Assembly: GCF_024609215.1 (NCBI RefSeq)
Contig: NZ_JANIPD030000023.1
Location: 204,962 to 268,961 of the forward strand
Direction: 5' to 3'
Length of the DNA stretch: 64,000 bases
DNA from: Curtanaerobium respiraculi
Lineage (GTDB): Bacteria; Actinomycetota; Coriobacteriia; Coriobacteriales; Eggerthellaceae
Translations under genes and position numbers: made by a program
In this document: piece after piece, positions 16,596 through 26,733 of the stretch
How positions within the stretch are numbered: the stretch's first letter is position 1
Layout of the letters: each line of letters begins with the position of its first letter
The notes under the pieces: model-generated
What the model was told of the DNA's origin: nothing
Seen by the model: only the letters and a program-made list of their open reading frames with translations
The model's database searches: none

Positions 16596-16697
16596 ATTCG
16601 CAAATCCTATTTGTTGAAATCATCAGCAAAATTGTACACACCGCAAGGCAAGGAACAACCCGTAAGCAATCCCCATCCAGGAAATTCACTTTAGAAA

Positions 16698-17158
16698 CTG
16701 CAGAGCATCGAGCTCGACGTTCTCTCCGTGATTGATCGGCTTTGCCGGGACAACAGCATCGATTACTTTATCGACAGCAACACTTGCTTGGGAGCCATAC
16801 GTTACGGCGGATTCACCCCTTGGGGCGACGAAATCGATTTCGGGCGCGATAGCCCCCGAAATACTGCCCGCCGATTACTCGTTGCGTACTTCGCTCAATA
16901 CGTCAGGATTTTCCACCCTATGGCCGAAAGTGTCCAAAGACGGCACAGGATTAATCGATGACAACGCCGATGAGACGGGATGCGAGCAGGGCATCTCCGT
17001 GGACGTCTTCGCGTATTGCCAGCTCGACGAGAATCCAGATAAAGAGAAGAAGCGATGCGGCAAGGCGCGCACCTCACAGCTGAAATCGTATCTGAAACAT
17101 TTTCCCGCCCGAGAGCGGCCCTTACAAGCACGCTCCGCTCGTGCTCGACTTTGGTTGA
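16698..17158 (+). pseudogene. Decayed licD gene (phosphocholine transferase remnant)
   Basis: The sequence aligns with the intact licD at 25876-26733 in three frames. Frame 1 gives LQSIELDVLSVIDRLCRDNS then IDYFIDSNTCLGAIRYGGF. After a short deletion near 16850, frame 2 gives DYSLRTSLNTSGFSTLW...GISVDVFAYCQLDENP...KSYLKHF. After a large internal deletion near 17110, another frame ends PYKHAPLVLDFG and a stop, matching the C-terminal THAPVILDFG of licD. The 5' end is also missing (a stop precedes CTGCAG). It is non-functional, and is on the opposite strand from the surrounding operon. Confidence 0.85.
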
Positions 17159-17180: not shown

Positions 17181-18254
17181 TTAGAGCAGTCCGCGTTTGT
17201 TCATGTCGGCAAAAGCCGCTTCCAATGCGGCGGTGTCCTGAGCGGAAATCGTGCCGATGTGGCCCACACGGAAGACTTCGTCGGCAAGGGAGCCCCCGTT
17301 GGGGCACAACCAGATTCCGTATTCATCCTTCATGGTGTCGTTGATTGAGCGGGCGCCCACGTTCAGAGGATGCAGCGCTGTGACTGTGTTCGACGGACTT
17401 TCCGACACCAGCTCAAAGGGATAGTCGGCTATGAACGTGCGGAAACGCCGGGCTCGGCCGCGAATGACCGCCTGCTCGGCTTCGACACCGCCCGCCGCTT
17501 CGATTGACTTGAGACGTGCGTTGATTTCCAGCAGCGTGGTAACTGCCGGCGTGAAAGGAGTCTGACCGCGCGCGCCGTTGCTCAACGCCTGTTTCAAACT
17601 CAAGTACAGGCACTTCTCGGGATTCTTCTCCACCCATTCAATCGCCTGCGGGGCAAGCGCCACCACGGCAATGCCAGGATGCACGGCTAGGGCCTTCTGC
17701 GATCCCGTGATCACCACTGCCGCGCTCAGGGCCGTCATATCGAGTTCGTCGGAAATGAAGGCGCTGATGGCATCGACCACCAGCAGCATGCCGTTCGCCT
17801 GACAGAACTCGGCGATCAGCGGCATGTCGTACAGCGTGCCAGAAGACGTTTCGTCCATATTCACCAACAGCGCGGTAAAACCCTGGCCGGTGCATTCCCC
17901 CAATTGTTCCGCACGTATCTGATGGCCGAATGGCACCTTGATCTCTAGATACTCCAAACCGTGCAGTGCGCACAGGTCCACGAATCGCTGGCCGAAACTA
18001 CCGCCGTTCACCACCAGCACCTTGTCGTCGGCGCTGAGTACGTTCATGACAACGGACTCCATGGCCCCCGTTCCCGACGTGGTCAGGAACACGCAACGGC
18101 TCCCCTTCGGCGCATGCAGGAATCGCAGCATAAGCCGCTCGTTCTCGAGCATGGTCTGGGAGAACTCGGGCGTGCGAAAGTACGGCGCGGACTGGCTGCC
18201 TACCTTCAGCACCTGGGATTCGGACATTACAGGACCTACCGTGAAATTCAGCAT
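17181..18254 (-). CDS. Class V aminotransferase (PhnW / alanine-glyoxylate aminotransferase-like)
   Basis: A PLP enzyme of about 357 residues. It opens LNFTVGPVMSESQVL, typical for the 2-aminoethylphosphonate/serine-glyoxylate group. It has the phosphate-binding TTSGTGAMESVV, the aspartate in LLVVDAISAFISD, and the PLP lysine in ITGSQKALAVHPG. It is the last gene of a tight operon starting at 23083. The start is taken at 18254, with AAAGG upstream; an ATG at 18275 is an alternative that lies almost directly behind the previous stop. Its likely job is interconversion of an amino alcohol, amino phosphonate or amino acid with its aldehyde or keto form, linked to the CTP-dependent enzymes upstream. 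No PEP mutase or phosphonopyruvate decarboxylase is in the window, so phosphonate synthesis is unproven. Confidence 0.82.
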   Translation of the reverse strand: MLNFTVGPVMSESQVLKVGSQSAPYFRTPEFSQTMLENERLMLRFLHAPKGSRCVFLTTSGTGAMESVVMNVLSADDKVLVVNGGSFGQRFVDLCALHGLEYLEIKVPFGHQIRAEQLGECTGQGFTALLVNMDETSSGTLYDMPLIAEFCQANGMLLVVDAISAFISDELDMTALSAAVVITGSQKALAVHPGIAVVALAPQAIEWVEKNPEKCLYLSLKQALSNGARGQTPFTPAVTTLLEINARLKSIEAAGGVEAEQAVIRGRARRFRTFIADYPFELVSESPSNTVTALHPLNVGARSINDTMKDEYGIWLCPNGGSLADEVFRVGHIGTISAQDTAALEAAFADMNKRGLL

Positions 18255-18281
18255 GGAAAAGCCTTTCGCACACATTCGCGC

Positions 18282-19628
18282 TTACGCCAGCTCGAACAAA
18301 TCGTTCTTTGCGTAGAAGTCAGCAATGATCCCGGACGTCGCCAGCGAGACCGCATCGTCTATATATGCATCGGTTTTGCCAGTCTGAATCTGCTTCAGGA
18401 AATCGACGAGCATGTAACGGATTCCCTCGCCGTCCAACTTATAAAAATACCGCTTTGTATCGGCTAGGTCTTCGTAGCGCACTTCAAAATACTCGGTCTT
18501 CCACCAGGGCGACGGCACGTACACGTATCCGCACGTCCCGGTGATCACTAAGTCGCCTTCCGATTTGGCTCCCTTACCAACCTTGATCGAAGCGACAGCG
18601 TGGGGGTAAAGGAAGTCGATCTTGGTGAACGAGTCGAACTCTTTACCGGGATCTGCAAAATGGGTGACGATACGTTTCGAGAGGTATTCCGTTCCCAGCA
18701 GTTGGAACACCGGTAGCAGTGCCGTAGGACCCCACTCGCAGATACTGTTCCACACGCGCGACATCTGGCGCTCGTCGTCAACATCGACCGCACGCAGGCT
18801 GGTGCAGGCGGCATCTACCGAGCGCACTTGGCCGATGCGTCCGCTCTTCACCAGCAGCAGCAAACGCTCGTAGGCCATGGAATAAGCTGTGCGCAGGGCG
18901 TTCACCAGCACGCAGCCCTTCGACTGCGCAAGAGAGCGCAGCTCGCGCTCTCGATCAGGGTCGGTAACCACGGGCGACTCGCACAACACATGCACGCCCG
19001 CCTCCAACGCCTTCCTGATTTGCTCGTAATGCTCGCTCGGGTGCGAAATCAGAAAGACCGCGTCTACGGAATCCAGCAGCTCATCGTAGTCCTCTGTGAC
19101 CACCGGCAAATCCCGTAGATCTTCGGGAACGACTTCTACATCGCTCGAGAACACGCCTCGCACGTCGATTCCGTTCACATACGCGCTTTCCCGTAGGAAC
19201 TTGGCCAAGTACGCATGGCTGCCGACCAGGCCCATGCGCAGTGCACGCTTGTCGGAGCGAATCTGCGTGCTGGAAACTCCCTGCGTGCGCGGCAGGTACA
19301 CGACTTTGCAGAACTCGTTTAGATAGTCGAAATTCCCAACCCAATCGTTGCCGACCGTGAAGATGTCGATGCCCAAGCGCTTGATGTCATCGATCTTCTG
19401 GCCTTCGTATTCTTCCACGATAATCTCGTCGGCAAGGCCGGTCTCACGCACGGCGGCAATGCGCTCAATAAGCGATTGCTGCACGTTGATTTTGCCGCGC
19501 GCACGGTCGAAGTCATCGGACGTTACGCCCACGACCAGGTAATCACCTAAGGCTTTCGCCCGCTCGAGCAAGCGAATATGTCCTCGATGGAGCAGGTCAT
19601 AGGTACCGTAGGTGATTACCTTTGTCAT
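18282..19628 (-). CDS. Cytidylyltransferase - Gfo/Idh/MocA oxidoreductase fusion
   Basis: Two domains in 448 residues. Residues 1-130 are a TagD/GCT-type cytidylyltransferase: GTYDLLHRGHIRLLERAKAL holds the H-x-G-H motif and RTQGVSSTQIRSD the second nucleotide motif. Residues 135-448 are a Gfo/Idh/MocA-like oxidoreductase beginning MGLVGSHAYLAKFL. The family's E-K-P motif reads VLCESPVVTD here, so the usual lysine is a serine and the domain may be catalytically altered. The ATG follows directly after the stop of the transporter gene. A plausible product is a CDP-activated polyol or amino-polyol. The combination with an aminotransferase and a LicC-LicA protein is unusual; the substrate is unknown. 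Confidence 0.8.
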   Translation of the reverse strand: MTKVITYGTYDLLHRGHIRLLERAKALGDYLVVGVTSDDFDRARGKINVQQSLIERIAAVRETGLADEIIVEEYEGQKIDDIKRLGIDIFTVGNDWVGNFDYLNEFCKVVYLPRTQGVSSTQIRSDKRALRMGLVGSHAYLAKFLRESAYVNGIDVRGVFSSDVEVVPEDLRDLPVVTEDYDELLDSVDAVFLISHPSEHYEQIRKALEAGVHVLCESPVVTDPDRERELRSLAQSKGCVLVNALRTAYSMAYERLLLLVKSGRIGQVRSVDAACTSLRAVDVDDERQMSRVWNSICEWGPTALLPVFQLLGTEYLSKRIVTHFADPGKEFDSFTKIDFLYPHAVASIKVGKGAKSEGDLVITGTCGYVYVPSPWWKTEYFEVRYEDLADTKRYFYKLDGEGIRYMLVDFLKQIQTGKTDAYIDDAVSLATSGIIADFYAKNDLFELA

Positions 19629-21065
19629 TTACACGATCTCCAAATCATCCCTGTCGCGCAGCATGATGTCCCTGAGTGAGGGGACCTTCGACGCGAGCCA
19701 ATACAGGAATCCGCCGAACACCGCGGTGAAACCCGAGCCGGTGGTGAAGTTGAAGACCACGCTCTGAATCTCGCCAGTGACGGGGTTGTAGACCATGAAC
19801 AGCGCAACGAACAGCGTGAGCAGGATCACCACAACGCCAATCCAGTTGAACCCGCCCTTGAAGTCGTAGGCGTCGTGGCCTTCCTGGTAATAGAGGCTCT
19901 TAATCGAGAACCTGCGCTTGCGCAGGATGATGTAGTCCACGAACATAATGCCGATGATGGGACCCTGGATGTAGGCGGCGATGGAGATGAACTGTCCGAA
20001 GTTCGCCGTAACCTGGCCGGAGTAGGTGAGCACGGCAACGTAGATGGCGGAAAGCAGCACGAGCACCTTGTAGTCGACCTTAGGCCATGCGGCCTTGAGC
20101 ACCATGTCGTTCACGTAGCCGCCCACGGCCTGGGTGCCGATGTTCGCAAACGCGACCAGCATGAGGGACAGCAGAGCGACCTGCGGCCCCAAGGTTGCCA
20201 GCATGACGGTGGGGTCGTCCACATACACACCCGTGGTGACGAACATGACGATGGCCATCACACCTCCGATGAACACAAAGAACGGCGCCACGATCGCATA
20301 CCCTGCAAAGGTACCCCAGTAGCCGCCGCGCTCGGTTTTAGAAAGACGCGGCAGAACGATCGCTTGGGTGGACCAGCTGAAGGAGAACGCCGCCATTCCC
20401 TCGGCCGCCATTGCATACGCCTCAAAATTGTTGCCACCCACGGATGACAAATCCGGCCTGTAAGCGATGACCTGATCTATCGGCGCTATGGTGAAGCACA
20501 TAAAAAATACGATGACCCCGATGGCGAGCAGCAGCGTGACCAGGATACGCGACGTCCATTTGATGGCGGAAGGACCGGCGATCGCGATAAGCGATCCTCC
20601 TGCCACGCTGATGATCGAAATCCACCGTACGGCCTTGTCCGGAACGATAATCCCGAATCCAGCGCAAATCTGAGCAATCGAGGATCCGAACATGTTCGCA
20701 GCAACCGCATACCAAAACCAGTTCCCCAGTATGACGAGAGTTGCGAACACCTTCACACCGTTCTTCCCCAAAACGGCGCGGAGATACACCCAAAGATCCA
20801 CCCCATAGCGCACGGCGAAGATAACCGGCAAGCATTCAATGATGAGGAAGATGCCGCCCATTGCGAATGTGACGATAAGCGTCTGCCAAAAATCGAGATA
20901 ACTCGCAGAGAGGGCTCCCTGCGAATAGCACAAAGTTGCGATGGCAAAGCCACTCGTTACAAGAAGCGTATCCCAAAAACCGTACGAGCGCTCACTCTTC
21001 TTGACCGGAACGAGCCCGAATATGGTTTCCTGGTTGACGTATTCCTCCATGGTCTGCTTGGACAT
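19629..21065 (-). CDS. NCS1-type permease (purine/cytosine permease family)
   Basis: A 478-residue membrane transporter with about 12 helices in the LeuT-like NCS1 arrangement. It begins ETIFGLVPVKKSERSYGFWDTLLVTSGFAIATLCYSQGAL, the usual NCS1 entry with conserved glycines, and has the mid-protein MAAEGMAAFSFSWSTQAIV and AAYIQGPIIGIMFVDYIILRKR near helices 8-10. Known members import nucleobases, allantoin, hydantoins or thiamine precursors by cation symport. In this operon it takes the place that the choline transporter LicB occupies in lic loci, so it may bring in the amino alcohol or base used by the LicA domain. The GGAGGTGAGGGC ribosome site is shared with the end of the small gene upstream. 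Confidence 0.82.
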   Translation of the reverse strand: MSKQTMEEYVNQETIFGLVPVKKSERSYGFWDTLLVTSGFAIATLCYSQGALSASYLDFWQTLIVTFAMGGIFLIIECLPVIFAVRYGVDLWVYLRAVLGKNGVKVFATLVILGNWFWYAVAANMFGSSIAQICAGFGIIVPDKAVRWISIISVAGGSLIAIAGPSAIKWTSRILVTLLLAIGVIVFFMCFTIAPIDQVIAYRPDLSSVGGNNFEAYAMAAEGMAAFSFSWSTQAIVLPRLSKTERGGYWGTFAGYAIVAPFFVFIGGVMAIVMFVTTGVYVDDPTVMLATLGPQVALLSLMLVAFANIGTQAVGGYVNDMVLKAAWPKVDYKVLVLLSAIYVAVLTYSGQVTANFGQFISIAAYIQGPIIGIMFVDYIILRKRRFSIKSLYYQEGHDAYDFKGGFNWIGVVVILLTLFVALFMVYNPVTGEIQSVVFNFTTGSGFTAVFGGFLYWLASKVPSLRDIMLRDRDDLEIV

Positions 21066-21077
21066 GCCCTCACCTCC

Positions 21078-21251
21078 CTACAGGAATTCGCCGATAACAA
21101 GCAGAATGAGGGAAACGATAGGGCAAGCGACGATCAGCGCCCAGTCCACCTTCCCCAACGCCCGGGGGAACTCATAACCGGACTCTTCCATGATCGCCAG
21201 GCGTTCGCGAACCTCGCGATCGAGCTCTTCTTCAAAGTTATTATCCGGCAT
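21078..21251 (-). CDS. Small single-pass membrane protein upstream of the NCS1 transporter (57 aa)
   Basis: The product starts MPDNNFEEELDREVRERLAI, continues through a charged helix to EFPRALGKVDW, and ends in one hydrophobic helix (ALIVACPIVSLILLVIGEF). The ATG at 21251 has AAGGAGAG a few bases upstream, and its stop is 12 bases before the transporter ATG, so it is translated just before the permease. Charged helix plus one transmembrane segment next to a transporter resembles small accessory subunits of other symporters. Function is inferred from position only; no family recognised. Confidence 0.75.
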   Translation of the reverse strand: MPDNNFEEELDREVRERLAIMEESGYEFPRALGKVDWALIVACPIVSLILLVIGEFL

Positions 21252-21322
21252 TAACTCTCCTTCGGCCGTCTCGGGGATTTTTTACGATGCGCCGCACGCA
21301 AGCGCCGCAGCACGCAGAAGAA

Positions 21323-23083
21323 TCAGTCGCTAAGGCACAGCTCCGCGTACCTCTTCGCCGAGCGATACCAGAGGTAAACCCACGACCCGACTTGACCGCC
21401 TTCAGACTGCTTGTAAAGAGCCCAGACGTACCAATAGTACGAGCAGATAGCCACGTATCCGAAGCAATGACGCATCTCTTCGGGAGTCGGGGTTCGCCCG
21501 AAATATTCCCGCACGACGCCTTCCGCCTCCTTTGGGGTATAGTCGGAACAGCATATGAACGTGCCCAAATCACTCGCGTAATCTGCCATCGCGGAATACT
21601 CCCAATCGATGAGATCCATCCCACTTGCGTGGACAAGGAAGTTCGGGGCGTACATATCATTGTGGCACAGGCACAGTCTGTCCGCATCGGAAGCGACCAG
21701 GTCATGCACTCGGTCGATGCTCTGGGTAAGGGAGTCAAAGTCGACGGGCTTCGGATACGATCTATCCTCTAGGGATTCGACGATCTCGCGAGCCTTTGCG
21801 TACACGTCGAATGACCACTCCGACTTGACATCGCAGGTGTGAAGCTTGCGAGCTATGCCGAGAGCGGCAGAAACGTGCGCGGGATCGTGGTAATCGAACG
21901 GAACGCAGTCCTTGATGAAATACGACAGTTTCCAACCGTGCTCGGAATCTTCATAGAGAAACGTCGAGTCGACACCCAGATCCTTCGCCACCTTCTGGGA
22001 GAATGCTTCGCTATCCCTGCAGATTATCGCCTCCGTGCCAGAACCGGGATGCCGATAGACATAGGTCTTTTCGCGAAGCGAGAATCGAAAGGAAAGGTTT
22101 GTGATCCCTTCCTTGATGGGAACGACGTTCGAAAGGTCTTCGCGATCGCACGAAAAGAAATTACAAATGTTGTCCAAAATAGATGAGTCGACATTCGCGA
22201 GGAAGTCTTTATCGAATGCTCGGACGTCCTCCAGCGAATCGAACTCGAAAATTATACCTGACTCGTATTCTTTGCGTGCCATCGACAGTTCATGGACATG
22301 CTCAGCGAAGATATCCTCCCAGAGTTTCGGAGCAGTTTCGGGCAGATCGTATTCGGCTTCCAATATTTCGACGAACTTCTTCGAGAACGCCCGGTCGAAG
22401 TAGACATGCCCCAGCATGCACCACGCATCATTCCCCCCATTCACACCAACCTTGGTGATACGTCCATGAGGTCCGGTTTCAACTACGTATTCGTCAGTCG
22501 GGCCCGCGAAAAAGACCGTCGAATAATACGCCCGATATACGTAGCGCGTGAAGGGATTCTGGGTGAAATAGTCATCCGACGAGCAGATGTAGGTATTGCC
22601 GAGGATATTGCGCACCAGATGGAGGGTCGAATTATTGTTGCGCTCGGCAAAATGCTCATTGACAACGATCTTCACACCGAATAGGTCCTCCAGGTAGAAG
22701 AAAGCCTCTTTCATGTAGCCGACGACCAACGTGATATCCGTAATTCCGGCTTCGTGCAGCTGGCGAATTTGCCGTTCGATCAGAATCTCGCCCCGAATGC
22801 GCATCATACCCTTCGGTTTTTCGTACGATAGGGGAACGAAGCGTGAAGAGAGTCCTGCGGCCATGATTACTGCGTTTTCGACACGGTAGGGTTCGAGCGC
22901 AGTAACACCCGACTCGGTAATCCCCTCGCGGCCAGCAAGCCCGTCTTTCACGCATCGAGAGAACGCTTTGTTGACCGTACCCAACGAAAGACCCGTCATA
23001 CGAGCCATCTCCCGCTGGGGCATGGAGGAGCCAGCGGTATCCAACGCCTGGAGAACCTTGAATGAATTCTCATCAAGTTGCAC
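21323..23083 (-). CDS. Winged HTH - LicC-like cytidylyltransferase - LicA-like kinase fusion
   Basis: Three parts in 586 residues. Residues 1-62: winged helix (QREMARMTGLSLGTVNKAFSRCVKDGLAG). Residues 68-310: LicC-type nucleotidyltransferase starting VIMAAGLSSRFVPLSYEKPKGM, with ICSSDDYFTQNPF as the acidic metal site. Residues 330-586: choline-kinase/APH fold with LCHNDMYAPNFLV (H-x-D...N) and LIDWEYSAMAD. It would phosphorylate choline or a similar amino alcohol and convert it to the CDP derivative; a LicD-type transferase then puts the phospho-amino alcohol on a glycan. The DNA-binding head suggests the enzyme also regulates its own operon. It is the first gene of the operon down to 17181. 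Not a frameshift artefact: one clean frame. Confidence 0.88.
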   Translation of the reverse strand: MQLDENSFKVLQALDTAGSSMPQREMARMTGLSLGTVNKAFSRCVKDGLAGREGITESGVTALEPYRVENAVIMAAGLSSRFVPLSYEKPKGMMRIRGEILIERQIRQLHEAGITDITLVVGYMKEAFFYLEDLFGVKIVVNEHFAERNNNSTLHLVRNILGNTYICSSDDYFTQNPFTRYVYRAYYSTVFFAGPTDEYVVETGPHGRITKVGVNGGNDAWCMLGHVYFDRAFSKKFVEILEAEYDLPETAPKLWEDIFAEHVHELSMARKEYESGIIFEFDSLEDVRAFDKDFLANVDSSILDNICNFFSCDREDLSNVVPIKEGITNLSFRFSLREKTYVYRHPGSGTEAIICRDSEAFSQKVAKDLGVDSTFLYEDSEHGWKLSYFIKDCVPFDYHDPAHVSAALGIARKLHTCDVKSEWSFDVYAKAREIVESLEDRSYPKPVDFDSLTQSIDRVHDLVASDADRLCLCHNDMYAPNFLVHASGMDLIDWEYSAMADYASDLGTFICCSDYTPKEAEGVVREYFGRTPTPEEMRHCFGYVAICSYYWYVWALYKQSEGGQVGSWVYLWYRSAKRYAELCLSD

Positions 23084-25875: not shown

Positions 25876-26733
25876 ATGGGAGATAATCCCTATCCGAATT
25901 CAACTCTTCAACGCCTGCAAGACGTTGAACGTGAGATCTTGGCAATTATCGATAAGATCTGTCGGCGGAACGACATCGATTACTTTATCGATGGAGGCAC
26001 TTGCCTAGGCGCGGTTCGCCATGGGGGATTCATTCCCTGGGATGACGACATAGATATCGGCATGCCTTACAGTGACTACATGAGGTTCTGCGAAATCGCC
26101 CCCCTCTTGCTTCCCGAGGGATACTCTCTTCATACTTCTACGAACACAAAAGGGTTTTCCGCGCTTTGGGTTAAGGTGTTCAAAGATGGAACGCGTTTCA
26201 TCGACGACAATGCCCAAGAAGCAGGCTGCAATCAGGGGATATTCGTCGACGTATTCGCTTACTGCCAACTTAATGCAAACGAGAACATCGCGAAGAAGCA
26301 ATGCGCACGCGCACGTAAGGCACAGGTGAAATCGTACCTCAAACATTTCTCTCGCCCCAAATTGCCCAAAGGAACCCCCGCGAGACATCTTGTTTCATTT
26401 GCATGCAAGCTTATACATGCAAGCGTTGCAAAATTATGGTCGCAAGATGAATTGCAGCGCGCATTCGACCGCTCATTCGATTCGAACAATCCGGGTAAGC
26501 GGTGGATTGAAGCAGCTTATCCCGATTGGGGATCGCATGATGCAGAAACATTGTTCCCAACCCAGGATATACGTTTCGACGAACTCACCGTGCGAGCACC
26601 CCATAACTGCGACGCATATCTTTCGACGCTGTATGGCGACTGGCGGCAGGTTCCCCCTTCTGATGGACGATACACCCATGCGCCTGTGATTCTGGATTTC
26701 GGAGACGGGGCCAACGTTATGGATGTGCGATGA
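25876..26733 (+). CDS. licD: LicD-family phosphotransferase
   Basis: LicD proteins transfer phosphocholine or a related phospho-alcohol from a CDP donor to a sugar of a surface glycan or teichoic acid. This 285-residue protein shows the LicD/nucleotidyltransferase signature RNDIDYFIDGGTCLGAVRHG and then GFIPWDDDIDIGM (the acidic D-D-D-I-D metal motif). It also has FVDVFAYCQLN and a conserved C-terminal YGDWRQVPPSDGRYTHAP. AAGGA precedes the ATG. It is on the plus strand, opposite its neighbours, behind a truncated glycosyltransferase gene; a decayed paralogue lies at 16698-17158. The likely donor-making enzyme is the LicC-LicA fusion at 21323-23083. The acceptor sugar is unknown. Confidence 0.9.
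   Translation: MGDNPYPNSTLQRLQDVEREILAIIDKICRRNDIDYFIDGGTCLGAVRHGGFIPWDDDIDIGMPYSDYMRFCEIAPLLLPEGYSLHTSTNTKGFSALWVKVFKDGTRFIDDNAQEAGCNQGIFVDVFAYCQLNANENIAKKQCARARKAQVKSYLKHFSRPKLPKGTPARHLVSFACKLIHASVAKLWSQDELQRAFDRSFDSNNPGKRWIEAAYPDWGSHDAETLFPTQDIRFDELTVRAPHNCDAYLSTLYGDWRQVPPSDGRYTHAPVILDFGDGANVMDVR

Follow-up and report, generated by a model that had tools for sequence, protein, structure and literature searches.

A five-gene operon of Curtanaerobium respiraculi resembling a Lic-pathway variant, with a predicted new importer and a second, uncharacterised donor-making gene pair

Introduction

Homologues of LicC and LicA are usually taken as phosphocholine genes; in Treponema denticola a fused kinase and cytidylyltransferase, LicCA, which is not known to have a helix-turn-helix (HTH) domain, reportedly serves phosphatidylcholine synthesis. 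Among the closest described systems are the Lic-1 pathway, licA-licB-licC-licD (available part of PMC10434233), and phosphonyl tailoring, for which PntC-AEPT fusions exist (available part of PMC6697681). Here a run of five genes is described from a window of 64,000 nucleotides of C. respiraculi, that is, the whole stretch of DNA analysed (contig 3, 204962-268961, of a 2.5 Mb genome in 44 contigs, 99.5% complete, labelled G000). Its sequence suggests a modified Lic pathway in which a predicted new importer takes part, coupled with a second, uncharacterised pair of donor-making genes.

In the following, GCT-OX stands for a cytidylyltransferase-Gfo/Idh/MocA fusion, AT5 for a class V aminotransferase and AT1 for a HisC-like class I aminotransferase; Tyr type refers to residue patterns treated below. 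The five genes are:

21323..23083, minus strand: fusion of HTH, LicC-type cytidylyltransferase and LicA-type kinase, 586 residues, GTG start (Pfam HTH_24, NTP_transf_3 and Choline_kinase); module 1, Tyr type (residues 199 and 478 both Tyr)
21078..21251, minus strand: 57-residue protein with a single transmembrane (TM) segment, predicted NCS1 partner, ATG preceded by GGAG; module 1, kept ahead of NCS1
19629..21065, minus strand: NCS1-type permease, predicted ethanolamine importer, 478 residues (PF02133 Transp_cyt_pur, Mhp1 match); module 1
18282..19628, minus strand: GCT-OX, a TagD/GCT-type cytidylyltransferase with a degenerate Gfo/Idh/MocA domain, 448 residues (Pfam CTP_transf_like and GFO_IDH_MocA); module 2
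17181..18275, minus strand: AT5, class V aminotransferase, 364 residues (Pfam Aminotran_5), related to the protein of structure 3f0h; module 2

The gaps along the run, from HTH-LicC-LicA to AT5, are 71, 12, 0 and 6 bases, as the first-pass annotation had described them (five genes on one strand, gaps of 0-71), and its domain labels agree with the Pfam and NCBIfam results.

Two modules that also occur apart

The operon consists of two modules, each of which also occurs without the other: module 1 comprises HTH-LicC-LicA, the 57-residue protein and the NCS1 permease, and module 2 comprises AT5 and GCT-OX. The class of the source organism was surveyed in 296 genomes, G000 counted in, with gene positions in the compared loci set by tblastn. 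A LicC-LicA match (E <= 1e-20) is present in 103 of these genomes, a close NCS1 gene (at least 54% identity) in 7, the source genome included, and AT5 (E <= 1e-60) in 15. The GCT-OX query matched 235 genomes, mostly through a single domain, and 20 were counted as GCT-OX genomes, 19 with a full-length gene and one, G174, with a shortened gene and no AT5.

All five genes are found together only in G000 and G039, and their orders differ, the latter having AT5, GCT-OX, LicC-LicA, small TM gene and NCS1 on one strand. In three further genomes (G044, G056, G068) the AT5/GCT-OX pair adjoins a LicC-LicA and DMT permease pair on the opposite strand; G174 is of the same genus. LicC-LicA is present in 12 of the 20 GCT-OX genomes and gave no match in the other 8 (G100, G146, G152, G167, G209, G211, G217, G254). 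A single linear five-gene pathway was considered and rejected, since those 8 genomes hold GCT-OX without LicC-LicA, and NCS1 and LicC-LicA occur without GCT-OX in G220, where the GCT-OX search gave no match, and in G265, which is not among the matched genomes. The five genes, treated as one set in the first-pass annotation, are in this reading two modules.

Permease partners of LicC-LicA

LicB, which we take to be a DMT-family protein, is absent from the operon, where an NCS1-type permease stands in its stead, as had been noticed at first reading; when the DMT permease of locus L113 served as query in place of LicB, the only match, at 29% identity, lay on another contig of the genome. The window permease scores 63.4 bits against Transp_cyt_pur, over the Pfam cut-off of 23.5, and 65.5 bits against the NCBIfam ncs1 model, below its cut-off of 353.1. 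Aligned to Mhp1, in which W117, Q121 and N318 are presumably the hydantoin-binding residues, it keeps W117 and has Ala for Q121 and Gly for N318.

In 5 of the 7 genomes with the close NCS1 gene, the source genome included, no more than 410 bases separate it from LicC-LicA; the two are on the same strand in four and convergent in G272. Each of the seven genomes carries a LicC-LicA of the Tyr type, and EutH, the ethanolamine permease family, is missing from all of them. EutH itself (PF04346, E <= 1e-10) is represented in the class by 17 genes in 16 genomes. Fifteen of these genes follow a LicA or LicC-LicA gene of the same strand at a distance of 42-135 bp, the exceptions being G226, with EutH and LicC-LicA on separate contigs, and G094, without a LicC-LicA match; in 6 of the 15 linked cases the query matched the LicA part only. 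The membrane protein of about 400 residues beside Tyr-type LicC-LicA is EutH in the two cases tested (PF04346, E 2e-118 and 1e-115). One genome, G272, has both arrangements, a Trp-type gene with a DMT permease and a Tyr-type gene with NCS1. The NCS1 permease would thus take the place of EutH, and this substitution points to ethanolamine as their shared substrate.

In a tree of 30 LicC-LicA proteins, the Trp-type pair L175/L176 falls outside the main DMT clade (starred branch, 95/90), and the NCS1- and EutH-linked rows form one weakly held clade (91/93) with its inner order mostly open. The starred branches require the DMT label and the NCS1 label to change twice each; because one of the NCS1 rows is the remote L191, repeated permease exchange within the class is only suggested.

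The 57-residue protein has no match in Pfam (E <= 1) or NCBIfam (E <= 0.01). Its open reading frame (ORF) was counted as real because all 7 genomes with a close NCS1, the source genome included, have a homologue immediately ahead of the NCS1 gene. Homologues also stand ahead of NCS1 in the Clostridia-type genomes G336, where the order is LicC-LicA, small TM gene, NCS1 and LicC, and G339, and L098 has a fragment where its contig ends; of the 50 GCT-OX genomes searched for NCS1, 3 contain it. At L139-L142, a TM ORF of 73-93 residues lies directly ahead of a distant NCS1 gene (27-28% identity) in four of four cases; such a partner may therefore be widespread in NCS1 permeases. Small partners are familiar from SSS symporters, for example YjcH of ActP and YhdT of PanF.

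Ethanolamine or choline as substrate of module 1

The LicC half of the fusion matches the solved LicC of Streptococcus pneumoniae (1jyk, 1.5e-36) and the LicA half the solved LicA (4r77, 1.4e-23). Residue 199 of the window protein, a Tyr, occupies the position of W136 of pneumococcal LicC, which we take to be a choline-box residue. This position was read in 49 LicC-LicA genes of the class, first in 28, chosen as the closest to the window gene or as neighbours of GCT-OX, and later in 21 mid-ranked ones; the remote rows L191 and L092, from other phyla, where the residue is neither Tyr nor Trp, were excluded from the counts. In the first set it is Trp in 8 of 8 DMT-linked genes, Tyr in 5 of 5 NCS1-linked and Tyr in 8 of 10 EutH-linked ones (Fisher test of 8/0 versus 2/13, 9e-5, kinship ignored); five genes without DMT, EutH or NCS1 within 700 bases have Tyr (3), Trp (1) and Gln (1). 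The later set has Trp in 18 of 18 DMT-linked genes, two of which share one DMT gene, and Tyr, Tyr and Trp in three permease-less ones. The totals are Trp in 26/26 DMT-linked genes and Tyr in 13/15 linked to EutH or NCS1.

The kinase half follows a similar pattern. The choline pocket of pneumococcal LicA is described as Y197, W251, W254, Y268 and V178, with E213 at the rim (available part of PMC4364537). In the window LicA half, whose residue 478 is Tyr, the equivalents of Y197, W251 and W254 are kept, V178 is replaced by Tyr, E213 by Cys and Y268 by Trp; the V178 position holds Phe or Leu in 24 of the 26 DMT-linked genes and Tyr in 13 of the 15 linked to EutH or NCS1. For LicC a composite aromatic box is reported, and D105 and D192, also named there (available part of PMC6697681), were tried as discriminators and rejected: the window has Ser and Glu at these positions, and so do nearly all LicC-LicA proteins of both types. 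Taken together, the pattern at residue 199 and the linkage to EutH or NCS1 make ethanolamine, and not choline, the most likely compound for module 1 to salvage, with CDP-ethanolamine as the product. The first-pass proposal, import of an amino alcohol and its activation as a CDP derivative for glycan decoration, is supported in this form, with ethanolamine a more likely substrate than choline for LicC-LicA by residues and permeases.

Several points weigh against this assignment. Six of the 26 DMT matches are only 26-30% identical to the queries, which were DMT permeases and not LicB itself, and the 49 genes read, the later 21 of them from 20 regions, do not include the six EutH-linked genes with a LicA match only. 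The two EutH-linked genes with Trp both belong to one tandem array of G156; the DMT-linked L175 and L176 have Trp in LicC and Tyr in LicA; and the NCS1-linked LicC-LicA of the Clostridia-type genome L191 has Gly at the aligned LicC position. How often NCS1 and EutH were exchanged is beyond the resolution of the tree, and that EutH is a transporter is taken here as established background. Finally, the choline box is mostly kept in the window kinase, and ethanolamine can replace choline in pneumococci (available part of PMC4364537), two facts on account of which choline retains some probability as the substrate. The G156 array just mentioned (L165) consists of tandem LicC-LicA paralogues with two EutH genes.

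Ordinary phosphocholine salvage is accordingly the rival to be weighed here: NCS1 would import choline, LicC-LicA would make CDP-choline, and GCT-OX and AT5 would be unrelated neighbours. The window gene is indeed a bona fide LicC/LicA homologue with most of the choline box of LicA, and NCS1 sits in the place of LicB; against this, the Trp found in all 26 DMT-linked genes is Tyr in the window gene, many near relatives of that gene have EutH as their permease, and G272 keeps both residue types, each with a different permease. We consider phosphocholine salvage unlikely, though a serious contender.

The AT5/GCT-OX pair

The first-pass annotation had also noticed a second cytidylyltransferase accompanied by an aminotransferase, and the pair formed by GCT-OX and AT5 bears this out. 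AT5 stands beside GCT-OX or at most two genes from it in 13 of the 15 AT5 genomes of the class, and 13 of the 296 genomes hold both genes, with totals of 15 for AT5 and 20 for GCT-OX (hypergeometric 5e-16, kinship ignored). Five further GCT-OX genomes have AT1 directly upstream, so that one or the other aminotransferase is found in 18 of 20; of the remaining two, G271 ends at a contig edge and G174 has none.

Outside the class, 354 relatives of GCT-OX were found in the genome collection and 80 loci were kept. AT5 is directly upstream in 37 of them and AT1 in 21, in 9 either stands nearby on the same strand, no same-strand aminotransferase is present in 11 (three with AT1 next door on the opposite strand), and 2 have insufficient sequence; AT1 is present in 4 of 13 genomes without an upstream partner. 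Counting against a fixed pairing, five of the 80 loci (L069, L087, L107, L108, L111) have neither of the two aminotransferases as a neighbour and no AT1 in the genome, AT5 not having been searched genome-wide. The AT5/GCT-OX pair extends over several phyla, with occurrences in Bacteroidales, Clostridia, Treponema, Akkermansia and Methanobrevibacter, and LicD lies within 6 kb of GCT-OX in 45 of the 80 loci.

The closest solved relative of AT5, 3f0h, was deposited as 'Aminotransferase'; the PhnW model TIGR03301 gives it 129.9 bits, below the cut-off of 360.8. The GCT domain likewise stays below the cut-off of the TagD model TIGR01518 (112.2 versus 165.4 bits), and its residues H14, H17, K46 and R114 are kept in all 93 rows of an alignment. 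The second domain matches PF01408 (1.1e-14, over the Pfam cut-off), which sustains the earlier label of an oxidoreductase-like domain as to family. The lysine of its EKP motif (position 218), which we take to be catalytic in Gfo/Idh/MocA proteins, is present in only 1 of 93 rows, and a Gly at position 138 of the NAD(P) motif, presumably cofactor-binding, in 5 of 93; the three best solved relatives of the domain all have EKP. K355 and E357 are invariant across the 93 rows. On average, the most frequent residue of a position has a share of 85% in GCT, of 48% and 62% in the Rossmann halves and of 66% in the C-terminal part. With the EKP lysine and glycine motif mostly lost and K355 and E357 retained, the domain seems to be maintained for a role different from ordinary NAD(P) sugar oxidation. 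As to the product of module 2, a second CDP-amino-alcohol is our guess.

An alternative would place module 2 at the nucleotide level: GCT would make CDP-glycerol, which the Gfo/Idh/MocA domain and AT5 would convert to CDP-aminoglycerol (serinol). The GCT domain is indeed closest to solved glycerol-3-phosphate cytidylyltransferases, and the second domain has highly conserved residues in K355 and E357. However, a single row of the 93 keeps the EKP lysine and the glycine motif is degenerate, which does not fit such a conversion, and a separate TagD-like gene in the genome (C6:116014-116388) could make CDP-glycerol; this route appears improbable.

Genes of related kinds were seen at other loci. 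In G170 (L166, 4.0-6.2 kb) a relative of AT5 (45%) lies directly behind a stand-alone LicC-type gene, near a LicC-LicA/EutH pair, and in G030 (L126/L178) a 604-residue fusion of a LicC-like protein with AT1 adjoins an octopine-dehydrogenase-like gene. OCD/mu-crystallin genes stand beside AT5 or AT1 and GCT-OX at L016, L077, L084 and L094, which form one cluster (Pfam was run on L084 only), as does an opine-dehydrogenase gene at L101; such neighbours are perhaps there for N-carboxyalkylated amines.

A link to phosphonates, raised in the first-pass annotation together with the absence of phosphoenolpyruvate (PEP) mutase from the window, was followed through the genomes. The source genome likewise has no PEP mutase match over the cut-off, the best being a short match of 18.9 bits. 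With E <= 1e-15 the enzyme was found in 24 of 72 genomes, namely 3 of 22 in the class, all three among the 20 that have GCT-OX, and 21 of 50 elsewhere, the latter search covering 50 of the 80 loci. Dependence of GCT-OX on PEP mutase was therefore rejected: at this threshold the mutase is missing in 17 of the 20 GCT-OX genomes of the class, which argues against phosphonate synthesis. In some Prevotellaceae loci and L063 (L033, L039, L040, L070, L063) a PEP mutase whose N terminus resembles a cytidylyltransferase adjoins GCT-OX, together with phosphonopyruvate decarboxylase- and PntC-like genes recognised by eye and, in L063, an iron-containing alcohol dehydrogenase; the suggestion of phosphonate tailoring finds a counterpart in these loci and is weakened by the class. 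A '67% LicC' match in L063 was discarded as a LicC-LicA orthologue, since it starts ahead of a PntC-PEP mutase fusion gene. Aminoethylphosphonate (AEP) tailoring, in which AT5 would be an AEP transaminase, a cytidylyltransferase would make CMP-AEP or CMP-hydroxyethylphosphonate and the phosphonate would be imported or made elsewhere, can draw on the relation of AT5 to PhnW, on those five loci and on the known PntC-AEPT fusions (available part of PMC6697681), but is highly improbable given the missing mutase, a PhnW score far under the cut-off and a usual partner that is GCT, not PntC.

Proposed pathway

The observations on gene set, conservation, partner swaps and residue patterns suggest a scheme in which all substrates, products and the transfer step are predictions. 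The NCS1 permease and its 57-residue one-TM partner would import ethanolamine, the LicA half would phosphorylate it and the LicC half would then make CDP-ethanolamine, with the HTH half probably regulatory. In module 2, AT5 would turn a cellular keto or aldehyde phosphate into an amino-alcohol phosphate, which the GCT domain would convert to a CDP donor, and the degenerate Gfo/Idh/MocA domain would have some non-canonical role. Finally, a LicD-type transferase would move the donors onto a surface glycan. The following genes of the window bear on this last step:

25876..26733, plus strand: LicD-family phosphotransferase (PF04991), candidate transferase for one donor
16668..17110, plus strand: frame-broken LicD remnant adjoining the AT5 gene, in two pieces of 212 and 87 bases, 72% and 74% identical in DNA sequence to the intact gene

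The PF04991 match confirms the LicD gene proposed at first reading. Remnant and intact gene have the same orientation and lie one on each side of the operon. Rfam gave no match in window positions 10000-31000, and promoter- and terminator-like matches are no more than expected by chance.

In our judgement the odds are even that both modules supply donors with which a LicD-type enzyme decorates a surface glycan. The full combination is put forward only tentatively: an NCS1-family ethanolamine importer with an obligate one-TM subunit of 50-60 residues would replace EutH in a Lic-like CDP-ethanolamine pathway, and a cross-phylum route of an aminotransferase and a cytidylyltransferase with a repurposed, non-redox Gfo/Idh/MocA domain would lead to a CDP-amino alcohol new as a LicD donor.

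Among the matches listed in the literature search (titles and abstract openings), there was no paper on a LicC-LicA/EutH or LicC-LicA/NCS1 pairing or on the GCT-OX/aminotransferase pair, and no assigned product for AT5/GCT-OX; the available part of the Lic-1 survey PMC10434233 makes no mention of Eggerthella, Collinsella, Olsenella or EutH. Should the Tyr/Trp code, together with the permease partner, separate ethanolamine from choline types, the surface head groups of many members of the class could be predicted from sequence and phosphocholine calls corrected; a small NCS1 subunit, if real, would add a new trait to a family in which the structure of Mhp1 is solved.

Comparison with known systems

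The locus shares with the Lic-1 pathway the logic of uptake, kinase, cytidylyltransferase and LicD (available part of PMC10434233). It differs in that LicC and LicA are fused behind an HTH domain, the permease is NCS1 with a 57-residue protein instead of LicB, and the residues point to ethanolamine. The NCS1 permease holds the same place as EutH beside Tyr-type LicC-LicA; however, it belongs to another Pfam family (PF02133 versus PF04346) and has a small TM partner. In this it resembles YjcH/ActP and YhdT/PanF, where a very small TM protein is likewise co-encoded with a symporter, whereas the partner in the window goes with NCS1 and has no Pfam or NCBIfam entry. As in PntC-AEPT phosphonyl tailoring (available part of PMC6697681), a cytidylyltransferase and a class V aminotransferase occur near LicD; in contrast to that system, the source genome has no PEP mutase match, and the cytidylyltransferase is GCT-type and carries a second, degenerate domain.

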